DNA of 64,000 nucleotides from an uncultured Clostridia bacterium (GTDB taxonomy: Bacteria > Bacillota > Clostridia > Oscillospirales > Ruminococcaceae). Shown here in pieces: positions 5,136-62,162 of the stretch. The stretch covers positions 1 through 64,000 of the forward strand of contig CAMVNQ010000003.1 in assembly GCA_947168885.1 (NCBI GenBank), given 5' to 3'. The notes under the pieces were generated by a model that was not told the origin of the DNA, did not search any database, and saw only the letters and a list, made by a program, of their open reading frames with translations. The position numbers were made by a program, and so were the translations under genes. Position 1 is the first letter of the stretch; each line of letters begins with the position of its first letter.

Positions 5136-5167
5136 AATACCGCCTCGAACAAAGTCCGAGACGGATT
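5136..5167 (-). terminator. Imperfect terminator directly after tRNA-Cys
   Basis: Minus strand AATCCGTCTCG...CGAGGCGGTATT followed by TTTCTGCC. The stem has mismatches, so it is probably leaky; it is the first of the serial hairpins after the tRNA genes. Confidence 0.6.
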
Positions 5168-5187
5168 CGCCGCCGCGCGTCCGCGGC

Positions 5188-56892: not shown

Positions 56893-57092
56893 GCCGCGGA
56901 CGCGCGGCGGCGAAACCGTCTGTGACTTATCATCAACGGACAAATCACTGCCTCGCAGCCGTTATACTCTGCAATATGATTATCGCGATTCGGCCGCGGA
57001 CGCGCGGCGGCGATTCCGTCCGTAACTTATCAGCAGCGGACAAATCACTGCCTCGCAGCCGATATACTCTGCTGTATAATATCATGCCTGAT
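56893..57092. repeat. 100-bp direct duplication in an intergenic space
   Basis: GCCGCGGACGCGCGGCGGCGA starts at 56893 and 56993; each copy ends with TCACTGCCTCGCAGCCGNTATACTCTGC (56948-56972 and 57048-57072). The two copies differ at several bases. Members of the interspersed family. Confidence 0.85.
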
Positions 57093-57144
57093 CCCCGCAA
57101 CAAGCGGAGAAAGATATAAATGTTCAAAAGAAAGGAATAAGAAA

Positions 57145-58137: not shown

Positions 58138-58953
58138 TTATCTTTCCTTGACTTTACCGACAAGGGCGAATATCAGGAATACCGCGAGATTGACCACAAC
58201 GATACCCGCGCCGGTGGGAACATCTATGAAGTACGACCCGATAAGACCCGACGTAAAGCATACCACCGAGATCACCGCAGAGCATATCGTCACGCTCTTG
58301 AAGCCCTTGCAGACACGCATTGACGACAGCGACGGAAATATCATCAGACTCGATATTAAAAGCGCGCCCATGAGCCGCATTCCCACTACGATCACTACTG
58401 CTGTGAGCACAGAGATGAATGAGTTATAGACACCCGTGCGTATGCCTGTTGCGCTTGCGAAGCTCTCATCGAACGTCACCGCGAAAATCCGGTGATAAAG
58501 CAGAATGAACGTTACGCACACGATCACCGAGCATATCACCGAAAGCACCACATCCTCTTCGCTGAGGGCTAAAATGCTTCCGAACATATAGCTGTTTATG
58601 TCTATCGACACTCGGTTGAGCGCAAGGACTATCATTCCTATCGCAAGCGCGCTGCTCGACAGGATAGCGATAGCGCTGTCACCGCCCATTTTTCCCTTGC
58701 GGGTGATGTAAAGCAGCAGGAACGCCGACGCTATGACCACCGGTATCGCAAAGCCGAGCGGAGCTATCCCCGCCGCGGCGGCTATCGCGAATGCGCCGTA
58801 GCCGACATGGGAAAGCCCGTCGCCTATCATAGAATAGCGCTTGAGCACAAGACTTGTACCGAGAAGCGCCGCGCACAGCGACACGAGGATACCGACGACA
58901 AGAGCGCGCTGCATGAACGGGTAAGAAAAGACTGCGATAAGTTCATCTGCCAT
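58138..58953 (-). CDS. znuB: Metal (Zn/Mn) ABC transporter permease
   Basis: 271 residues from ATG 58953 (GGGGG about 12 bases upstream); an ATG at 58977 is the alternative. About eight membrane helices with family-typical FMQRALVVGILVSLCAALLGTSLVLKRYSMIGDGLSHVGYGAFAIA and GMRLMGALLISSLMIFPS. It forms the channel of a ZnuABC/MntABC importer. The gene overlaps the ATPase gene, but no substrate-binding protein is adjacent. Confidence 0.9.
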   Translation of the reverse strand: MADELIAVFSYPFMQRALVVGILVSLCAALLGTSLVLKRYSMIGDGLSHVGYGAFAIAAAAGIAPLGFAIPVVIASAFLLLYITRKGKMGGDSAIAILSSSALAIGMIVLALNRVSIDINSYMFGSILALSEEDVVLSVICSVIVCVTFILLYHRIFAVTFDESFASATGIRTGVYNSFISVLTAVVIVVGMRLMGALLISSLMIFPSLSSMRVCKGFKSVTICSAVISVVCFTSGLIGSYFIDVPTGAGIVVVNLAVFLIFALVGKVKER

Positions 58954-59674
58954 GAGTAAAACAGCCCCCTTCCCCATGAAAACAGCCGCGCGACATAAGG
59001 CGGAACGACTCGGTGGTGATGTACTCGTCGGACGTTCCGAAAAAGTAGTCGTTTTTGGACATATTGAGTATCTTGCTTCCGTAGTGAACGGCGTTGTGTA
59101 TATCGTGCGTTACCATTATAACGGTAACACCGCTGTGGTTGAGCTCATGAATGACCTCATACATCTCGGAGGTCACTATCGGGTCGAGACCGGAGACAGG
59201 CTCATCGAGCAACAGCAGTTTCTCCGTCGCGCACAAAGCTCTTGCAAGCAGAACGCGCTGCTGCTGACCGCCGGAGAGATCACGGTAGCTCTTATCTGCA
59301 ATGCTCTCTATCTTCATACGTTCTATCTCACGTTTTGCACGGGCTTTGTTTTCCTTCGTGTAGAACGGGAAAAGCGCGTTGCGGTTAAGGCAGCCGGAAA
59401 GCACGACTTCCCGGACTGTTGCGGGGAAATCCTTCTGCGCGGCTGTCTGCTGGGGGAGGTAGCCTATCTCTTTGGGCTTTACGCCGCCGAACTCGATACT
59501 GCCGGAGCTGTATTTTTTGAGCCCGAGTATGCCCTTGACGAGAGTTGACTTACCGGAGCCGTTTTCTCCGACGATGCAGAGGAAATCGCCCTCATCTATT
59601 GAGAAAGAGAGGTTCTCGAAAGCGGGAACGCCCTCATATTTCATGCATAGGTCTTTGCATTCTATAAGTTTCAT
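58943..59674 (-). CDS. znuC: Metal (Zn/Mn) ABC transporter ATP-binding protein
   Basis: 243 residues. Walker A GENGSGKSTL, signature LSGGQQQRVLLARALC, Walker B LLLLDEPVSGLDP and switch VTHDIHNAVHYGSKI. The C-terminal HGEGGCFTHGR carries extra His and Cys, which could sense or bind metal. It powers the importer with the permease that follows. AAGGTG precedes the start. Confidence 0.93.
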   Translation of the reverse strand: MKLIECKDLCMKYEGVPAFENLSFSIDEGDFLCIVGENGSGKSTLVKGILGLKKYSSGSIEFGGVKPKEIGYLPQQTAAQKDFPATVREVVLSGCLNRNALFPFYTKENKARAKREIERMKIESIADKSYRDLSGGQQQRVLLARALCATEKLLLLDEPVSGLDPIVTSEMYEVIHELNHSGVTVIMVTHDIHNAVHYGSKILNMSKNDYFFGTSDEYITTESFRLMSRGCFHGEGGCFTHGR

Positions 59675-59713: not shown

Positions 59714-59742
59714 ATTATAACATATAATCCCGCAGGTGTCAA
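59714..59742 (-). promoter_or_regulatory. Consensus promoter of znuCB
   Basis: Minus strand TTGACA (59742-59737), 17-base spacer, TATAAT (59719-59714), both perfect. Confidence 0.9.
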
Positions 59743-59753
59743 CAAAATCGTAT

Positions 59754-59780
59754 ATCGAGAAAATTTTATCGTTTTTCGAT
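59754..59780. promoter_or_regulatory. Candidate operator dyad between divergent promoters
   Basis: ATCGAGAAA and TTTTTCGAT form an inverted repeat (8 of 9) around ATTTTATCG, between the znuCB promoter and the plus-strand promoter. A regulator such as the DtxR-type repressor or a Zur-like protein could bind here; the site does not match a consensus I can name. Confidence 0.4.
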
Positions 59781-59789
59781 AAATTTCTA

Positions 59790-59818
59790 TTGACAAACAG
59801 ATATTTATGTGATATAAT
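59790..59818 (+). promoter_or_regulatory. Consensus promoter facing a gene-poor region
   Basis: TTGACA, 17-base spacer, TATAAT, both perfect, pointing away from znuCB. No convincing coding sequence follows for about 900 bases. Confidence 0.85.
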
Positions 59819-59824
59819 GCAGTT

Positions 59825-60727
59825 GTTGGAAGAATGCGTTGCACTGTAGCTTTTCGTCCCGCAGAGTGCGGTTGCCTTTTCGCCCCGCGACGAGAGCAGA
59901 TTATCTGTTGTCATTTCGCGACGTCGGTGGCGACTTCATTTCTGTCACCAGCGACAGAAACGAAGCAAAGAACGCCGCCCGCTTCGTGATCAAAGAAGCT
60001 CGACGAGTGTATCAGGCTTTTGGAAAACTCTGCGAATAAATCACTCGCCGGTTTCCGCCGAGCCTTGTTCAGCGAGCTCTTTGAAAACTCGCGGGGAGAT
60101 GTTAAGCGGGAAGGCGCAGACTTATCAGCTTCGCGCGGTTTATCACACATTCTCGCTTCACATCAAGTCATCGCAGCAAGATAAGTGGAGACCACCGATT
60201 CTTTCCCATAGGGCGCTCGCTTCGACGAGGGGCACTTCAATGGACTTTACGATTGCGCTTCCGATTAATGGACAAGTTTAGCACCCGCCTTCGTTAGTTA
60301 AATGGCTCTGAAAAGTAAGAAAGTATGCTGCAAACCTTTCATTTTTACCGAACCCTAACCACCATTCTACGCAGTACATATTTCGAGTTGATGAATCATA
60401 TTAACATGGAACAAGACCGTGACCCTAAAAGCCCATTGAAGCGGCTTTGACCGAGCCGAGCACCCAGAATAGCATATCGGTGATAACTTATGCGCTCGTC
60501 GGGGATAGCGGAGGTGAAGGGTCTGTAACAGGAACGTGCGAGAGCGAGATCGCTGCGGTCTCAAATCTTCGCCCCTTCGTTTCGCGGTTGTCAAAGAGTT
60601 TGCCTGCAAACTTCTTTGACACTGCGGAACACGCGTTCTTTGCTACTTTCTGTCGCTCGGACAGAAAGTAGGAGAAACCCAGTCGGTGCGGTTGCGGCAA
60701 ATTCCTGTTTTTAATGGAGAAACCGTT
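59825..60727 (+). other. Gene-poor transcribed-looking region, possible RNA
   Basis: About 900 bases with no ORF that has both a ribosome site and protein-like composition. It carries TTTCTGTCACCAGCGACAGAAA near 59940, GTCAAAGAGTTTGCCTGCAAACTTCTTTGAC at 60590-60620 and TACTTTCTGTCGCTCGGACAGAAAGTA near 60643. GCGACAGAAA...GCAAAGAACGC near 59952 recurs inverted near 60632-60660. Could be an untranslated RNA, a decayed element, or a long leader of the following cassette. Confidence 0.4.
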
Positions 60728-61060
60728 ATGGCAAAAAAGAAAAAGATCATTACTATCGCAGCGATAACTGTGCTGATAACAGCTATATCCGCGCTGTCGT
60801 ACATATTATGGGACAACAGCCTTAAACGGGCTGATTACACCTTCGACGGATATGAGATCGACGGAGCGGAATATACAGCTATGGGCTTCCGCTGGCAGGA
60901 AGAAGTCGGAGACTACAAGGAGACATGGAATATCGTCTGCAAAACGACCGACGGGCGCTGGACTTTTTATGAGATCGACAAGTTCCCGAACCGCGAATAT
61001 CTTGTCGCACGGTGCTTTTACAACGCCGAAGTAATAAAACGTAAAGGAGAACCGTTATGA
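60728..61060 (+). CDS. Small single-helix membrane protein (cassette gene 1)
   Basis: 110 residues from ATG 60728 (GGAGAAACC upstream). Basic N-terminus (AKKKKIITI), one membrane helix (AAITVLITAISALSYIL), then an external domain (DGYEIDGAEYTAMGFRWQEEVGDYKETWNIVCKTTDGRWTFYEIDKFPNREY). No family recognised. Overlaps the next gene by 4 bases. Confidence 0.78.
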   Translation: MAKKKKIITIAAITVLITAISALSYILWDNSLKRADYTFDGYEIDGAEYTAMGFRWQEEVGDYKETWNIVCKTTDGRWTFYEIDKFPNREYLVARCFYNAEVIKRKGEPL

Positions 61061-61458
61061 CCAAAAAGAAGAAAACTATAATTATTGTGACACTCGCCGG
61101 TGTGTTCGTCATCATCGGTCTTATCGTTTTCGGTGTCTGGGCGATACAGCAATATATGGACAAGAATACATGGGCGACTGTCCGCGTTACCGGAGCTGTA
61201 CAGTCCGACACCGCCGACGCTTTTGAGAGCGAACAGGAATGCCTCAAAGGCGACACACTCTCGTTCGCGGGAGTTATACTCCGCATTACCGACATACGCC
61301 ATGACGGAACGGTCTCGTTCTCCGTCGAACAGGGCAAACTGCTCAACGAAAACGGCGCGGCTGTGAGCTCCGGAATGCTCGTCAAAAAAACCGGTACAGA
61401 CTACAGGCTCGATAACGGGTATGTTACGCTGACCGTCACAAGCAACAGGTACAGATAA
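61057..61458 (+). CDS. Small single-helix membrane protein (cassette gene 2)
   Basis: 133 residues. Start TKKKKTIIIVTLAGVFVIIGLIVFGVWAI is one helix, followed by an external beta-rich region (ATVRVTGAVQSDTADAF, GVILRITDIRHDGTVSFSVEQGKL). Same basic-then-helix plan as gene 1, with an almost identical GGAGAACCGTT ribosome site. Function unknown. Confidence 0.78.
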   Translation: MTKKKKTIIIVTLAGVFVIIGLIVFGVWAIQQYMDKNTWATVRVTGAVQSDTADAFESEQECLKGDTLSFAGVILRITDIRHDGTVSFSVEQGKLLNENGAAVSSGMLVKKTGTDYRLDNGYVTLTVTSNRYR

Positions 61459-61484: not shown

Positions 61485-61937
61485 ATGAACATAAAATGGA
61501 CGAAAGAACGCTCGCTTATGCTTTCACGCGCACTGACGTGGGCTGTGCTGATACTCGCGTGCGCTATACTTTTCCTTATCCCCGTGATAACGATGTGGTA
61601 TGACGCGGTGTCCGGTAAACCGCCGATAATGCCTATCCTTACGGTATGCTGCTATCTCTGCGACTTTCTCGCGATAATCGCGCTCTGGGAGCTTAAAACG
61701 ATGCTCGCGAACATCTCGAAGCAGGAGCTCTTCACCGAGCGCAACACCCGCTGCGTGCGCATAATCTCGTGGTGCTGCTTCGGGGTAGCCGCAGTAATGT
61801 GCGGGCTTACGTTCTGGCGGCTCCTCGCGCTTCTCGTCGCAATAATCGCCGCATTCGTCGGGCTTATCCTGCGCGTTGTGAAGAATATGCTCGCGGCAGC
61901 CACCGAGCTTCGCGAAGAGAACGACTTCACGATATAA
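61485..61937 (+). CDS. DUF2975 membrane protein
   Basis: 150 residues with four membrane helices. LLFITNxNxRxxR-like centre is seen as KQELFTERNTRCVRIISWCCFGVA, the mark of DUF2975, and the end NMLAAATELREENDFTI is the usual 'EN-LTI' tail. DUF2975 genes nearly always sit next to a YozG-type HTH gene, as here. GGAG precedes the ATG. Confidence 0.9.
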   Translation: MNIKWTKERSLMLSRALTWAVLILACAILFLIPVITMWYDAVSGKPPIMPILTVCCYLCDFLAIIALWELKTMLANISKQELFTERNTRCVRIISWCCFGVAAVMCGLTFWRLLALLVAIIAAFVGLILRVVKNMLAAATELREENDFTI

Positions 61938-61949
61938 GGGGGTCTTGAT

Positions 61950-62162
61950 ATGCCGATAATCGTAAATCTCGATGTGATGATGGCAAAGCGGAAAATCTCG
62001 GCGGGCGAGCTCGCCGAACGCGTTGACATAACACCCGCCAACCTCTCTATCCTCAAAAACAACAAAGCCAAAGCCGTGCGCTTCACGACACTCGAAGCGA
62101 TTTGCCGTGAACTCGACTGTCAGCCCGGAGATATTCTCGAATTTGTGAAGGACGACAGGTGA
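61950..62162 (+). CDS. YozG-like Xre-family HTH regulator
   Basis: 70 residues: IIVNLDVMMAKRKISAGELAERVDITPANLSILKNNKAKAVRFTTLEAICRELDCQPGDILEF. This is the short cytoplasmic HTH that pairs with DUF2975 membrane proteins. The pair resembles a membrane-tethered regulator of its own operon. GGGGG precedes the start, 12 bases after the DUF2975 stop. Confidence 0.93.
   Translation: MPIIVNLDVMMAKRKISAGELAERVDITPANLSILKNNKAKAVRFTTLEAICRELDCQPGDILEFVKDDR

Follow-up and report, generated by a model that had tools for sequence, protein, structure and literature searches.

The roughly 900 gene-free bases between a perfect promoter and the gene cassette that it faces are very probably, as judged from comparison with related genomes, an inserted inverted pair of folded, non-coding repeats, of a kind dispersed through genomes of this rumen-type genus, lying between the cassette and its promoter, and not a metal-controlled RNA gene. 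The region lies in a 64,000-nucleotide stretch of DNA from an uncultured Ruminococcaceae bacterium, here called the window, whose genome is designated G000. A first-pass annotation had proposed that the promoter produced either a metal-regulated noncoding RNA or a long leader of the small-membrane-protein cassette. The description of the region on which these proposals drew proved accurate; the first proposal was not supported, and the second held only in its geometry.

Promoter and dyad upstream of the cassette

The genes and control elements on either side of the gene-free region are as follows.

58138-58977, minus strand: znuB-like ABC-3 permease (PF00950, by Pfam)
58943-59674, minus strand: znuC-like ABC ATPase (by Pfam)
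59714-59742, minus strand: divergent mirror-image promoter facing znuC (12/12 match)
59767-59781, no strand assigned: operator-like dyad TATCG-TTTTT-CGATA (TATCGTTTTTCGATA), identified by sequence
59790-59818, plus strand: sigma-70-type promoter assigned to the DUF2975/HTH_26 cassette (12/12 match, orthologous loci)
60728-61060, plus strand: first cassette gene, 110-aa small membrane-like protein (G002 homologue directly after the promoter)
61057-61458, plus strand: 133-aa small membrane-like protein
61485-61937, plus strand: DUF2975 protein (PF11188, by Pfam)
61950-62162, plus strand: HTH_26 regulator (PF13443, by Pfam), candidate binder of the dyad

The TTGACA-17-TATAAT promoter divergent from znuCB was confirmed at its reported position, with a match at 12 of 12 bases and TG ahead of the -10 element. 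Five perfect promoters were found in the 64-kb window compared to 0.025 expected under a first-order model, suggesting that the promoter at 59790-59818 is more than chance. The operator-like dyad that had been described was likewise present.

Orthologous loci were located across the genus with the cassette's HTH_26 regulator as query. A TTGACAAAC...TATAAT-type promoter preceded the DUF2975/HTH_26 cassette in 15 other same-genus loci, and an ATCG-N5-CGAT dyad accompanied it, at -22 of the promoter, in 13 of these. The distance from promoter to RBS/start codon, counted from the start of the -35 element, was 47-92 nt in the 15 genomes compared to 938 nt in the window. znuC was the divergent neighbour in only five of the 15 loci (G002, G339, G349, G323 and G354). 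The other loci carried the promoter and usually the dyad with no trace of znuC in the fetched flank (e.g. G353, G343, G023 and G340), and other genes were located upstream in G023. Because the orthologous loci place the promoter at this short distance from the cassette start with or without znuC, we assign it to the DUF2975/HTH_26 cassette.

The operator of a Zur or DtxR regulon would be conserved with metal-transport genes. The dyad instead tracked the cassette irrespective of znuC, and the fact that it persists where znuC does not adjoin speaks against an operator for Zn/Mn/Fe control. The cassette's own HTH_26 protein, rather than a metal repressor, would be the obvious candidate for binding it. 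A paralogous HTH_26 cassette (59% identity) at C4:100278-101649 of G000 showed the same promoter type with a different dyad, TTAACGAAAAACATTAA; an operator of its own for each regulator would fit this.

Insertion and empty sites

At the G002 locus with znuC, promoter and cassette, GGAAGGAAATGGGTTTTATG, with which the homologue of the 110-aa gene begins, came right after the promoter, and the ~880 nt found in the window were missing. A search of G000 with 59780-60727 as query returned two strong matches, C3:123496-124600 and C18:9795-10242 (78-81% identity), and three further copies were found in the same-genus genome G002. The inserted sequence consists of two inverted units of this multi-copy, non-coding, intergenic repeat.

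59829-60715, no strand assigned: insertion of ~880 nt, missing from 15 orthologous loci (ends accurate to ~20 nt)
59851-60298, plus strand: repeat unit A (78-81% identity to copies C18 and C3A)
60379-60699, minus strand: repeat unit B, inverted relative to A and more diverged (covariance match, identity to C3B)

Over the 5' 350-370 nt of unit A, identity to the three G002 copies was 71-73%. Unit B gave a covariance match at 60604-60699 (minus strand, E 5e-11), and its remaining part, 60379-60598, matched C3B at 77%. Units A and B were well diverged from each other, suggesting that the inverted pair is not a fresh insertion. By alignment the unit measured ~450-480 nt, with a family range of 300-500 nt; the window and C3 copies were inverted pairs and the C18 and G002 copies single units.

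A second empty site was seen at the C3 pair, where the interval from parB to the next gene was ~64 nt in G002 compared to 1227 nt in G000. A covariance search of 35 orthologous loci in other genomes (15 cassette, 9 flavoprotein and 11 parB) found zero copies.

The absence of a gene, as claimed for about 900 bases, was borne out: 59822-60727 contained no ORF with support. A coding explanation was rejected, since the longest ORFs (79, 74 and 66 aa) were broken by stops or lost homology in related copies; the 79-aa ORF had no Pfam match. A conserved small protein in the region, the finding that the first-pass annotation had set against its own reading, was looked for and not found.

Distribution and context of the repeat

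The covariance search across relatives that had been suggested was run with a model, R1, built from the 5' domain of the repeat. It did recover a family, with matches in 15 of 71 same-genus genomes and up to 15 copies per genome, but at many unrelated loci, where the folded sequence occurred without the window's promoter or dyad. Other genera of the bacterial family gave weaker, shorter matches to the core hairpin. Conserved blocks were interleaved with hypervariable blocks along the repeat. Exact matches to one 23-mer pattern of the repeat were found, among the named genomes, in G002 only. Phage records, plasmid records and IMG/VR gave no match to the repeat, and no description of it was found in the literature.

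Several further observations were made on these sequences. The core hairpin (TTCTTTG followed by the hairpin) occurred many times in G403, G383, G019 and G357, which include other genera, often alone or within other composite repeats. Copies in G340 carried tandem ~47-nt units (GTTCCCGCTTTCGTTAGTTT...) at the 3' end of the repeat, one half conserved and one variable. Beside a repeat copy in G002, a T-box leader scored below threshold at L009 1999-2258 (minus strand; 58 bits, E 1e-10). A second dispersed repeat, apparently unrelated, lay in the window at 56893-57130; it contained a ~100-nt direct repeat (1.8 copies, 91%) and had 25 matches in its own genome, one of them in the window at 5152-5187 adjoining a tRNA-Cys gene.

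Both neighbours were called, from crude longest-ORF calls, for 40 copies, and 25 of these lay between tandem genes. The latter were oriented 21 one way and 4 the other (two-sided binomial, ~0.0009). Many of the majority-orientation copies ended upstream of the next gene's normal promoter.

Folding and compensatory change

The hairpins noted earlier in the region were supported by RNA folding of 59822-60727 (z = -5.6) and by compensatory change that has kept helix P1.

59934-59965, plus strand: helix P1 of unit A (compensatory change)
59991-60002, plus strand: first strand of helix P2, unit A, with one conserved bulged base
60073-60083, plus strand: second strand of helix P2, unit A
60643-60671, minus strand: helix P1 of unit B

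The 13-bp hairpin P1 precedes a CAAAG motif. In P2, CAAAG-N-AGxxxGC pairs with GCxxxCTCTTTG and one bulged base is conserved. Pairing was assessed in 18 sequences (20 less two with mis-placed P2 3' strands), with the P2 loop cut out and the strands located by sequence motif, not by complementarity. P1 and P2 were paired in 96.0% of cells, a value reached by 0 of 500 shuffles; slid versions gave 40-49%. When 84 distinct sequences were aligned to the model, 95.3% of cells were paired and 171 showed double changes compared to 44 by shuffling, in an alignment that is model-guided and leans towards the structure. The strong covariation of P1 and P2 indicates that folding is under selection.

Signals of the folding strand were mixed. 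P1 mismatches were 13 A-C compared to 2 G-T in the chosen orientation, few of them independent, which hints that the complementary strand may be the one that folds. Other evidence disagrees: alignment folding of both strands favoured neither, and a small outer helix (alignment A3) leaned to the strand opposite that of the P1 mismatches. Rfam release 15 gave nothing significant for the window or for 14 loci with related copies; under permissive thresholds IMPDH RNA reached only E 0.079, far under its gathering score.

The compensatory change in both helices, the alternation of conserved and hypervariable blocks and the 21 to 4 orientation split would also fit a functional structured RNA rather than a DNA parasite, one kept in gene sense in the interval from a gene to the following promoter and acting on transcripts, for example on their stability or termination. 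We regard this as unlikely: copies sit at lineage-specific places, the strand signals conflict, and many copies stop short of the following promoter, which would leave them outside its leader.

Termini and mobility

The repeat is non-coding, present in many copies and mobile, as the empty sites indicate; these are features of a MITE. A subfamily in G334 carried ~20-bp terminal inverted repeats (TIRs; GGYAACAGCATTTACTTTTT), with 17 matches to the pattern and 0 to the reversed pattern, and the pairs bounding copies were mostly ~335-355 bp apart. No such TIRs were identified at either end of the window copy. For six other TIR sites in G334, the adjacent ORF lists were inspected by eye and revealed no transposase.

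Structured palindromes with compensatory change and strand-asymmetric P1 mismatches would fit a REP/RAYT-type element moved by an IS200-like Y1 transposase recognising the hairpins as single-stranded DNA, and a Y1 transposase was present in G000, with another, containing stops, in G334. The G000 gene (L131) had no repeat element beside it. Of the 12 genomes checked, 7 lacked a Y1 transposase, a soft absence as these are drafts; among the 7 were several copy-rich genomes and G340, G351 and G349. PF01797 had no match in G033, G340, G351, G349, G323 and G336, some of them copy-rich. The units, at 300-500 nt with P1, P2 and more, far exceed the 20-40 nt palindromic unit of REPs, and TIRs occur in one subfamily. 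A REP/RAYT-type element is on this evidence quite improbable, and Y1/RAYT as the general mover was rejected on the seven genomes without Y1.

Possible consequences for the cassette

We favour the reading in which the promoter and dyad serve the DUF2975/HTH_26 small-membrane-protein cassette as its control region, with the HTH_26 protein as the candidate binder of the dyad, and in which ~880 nt of a genus-level structured dispersed repeat have probably been inserted between the promoter and the first gene. The family may spread in a MITE- or REP-like manner, mobilised in trans by some enzyme. The cassette may still be transcribed from the 59790-59818 promoter, producing a long folded leader. 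In that case the mRNA of the cassette would start with a ~900-nt leader of two inverted folded units, and altered expression would be expected. The geometry of the long leader proposed earlier is consistent with this, as the promoter is the cassette's own and no other feature separates it from the first gene; an evolved leader is not, as its length is that of the inserted repeat.

Despite the perfect promoter, the dyad between divergent promoters and the stable folding, a dedicated regulatory RNA or long leader under a metal repressor common to znuCB is extremely improbable, given that promoter and dyad occur without znuC directly before the cassette, that many loci carry the folded sequence with neither of them, and that the ~880 nt are missing from all orthologous loci.

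The false lead of a metal-regulated RNA is replaced by a defined, testable repeat family that shows covariation and clean empty sites and has no entry in Rfam release 15. It appears to have parted an operon from its conserved promoter. Relatives that carry the insert and relatives that lack it offer a natural experiment on the effect of long folded leaders on expression. A more far-reaching suggestion, which we hold to be doubtful, is that these are undescribed large structured elements that combine a fold selected at the RNA level, intergenic spread in a preferred orientation, re-wiring of operons through long folded leaders and mobilisation by a novel mechanism.

Comparison with known systems

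Like the Rfam RNAs ROOL, GOLLD, HEARO and IMPDH RNA, the repeat is large, folded and from gut or rumen Clostridia, but it had no significant match to Rfam. In anatomy it resembles REP/BIME, ERIC and BOX elements, being dispersed between genes with conserved hairpins and an orientation bias; it differs in its 300-500 nt units with several helices and in having no general RAYT partner. Similar to bacterial MITEs, it is short, non-coding, multi-copy, intergenic and missing at orthologous loci, with TIRs in the G334 subfamily. In contrast to MITEs, no related transposase was found by the Y1 searches or in the ORF lists inspected, the internal helices are under selection, the internal parts are modular, and no TIRs were seen on the window copy. 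The repeat is MITE-like by anatomy, with membership of the MITEs not established, as these searches gave no cognate transposase and TIRs occur in one subfamily only, and is best read as a new family of structured repeats of a MITE/REP-like type.
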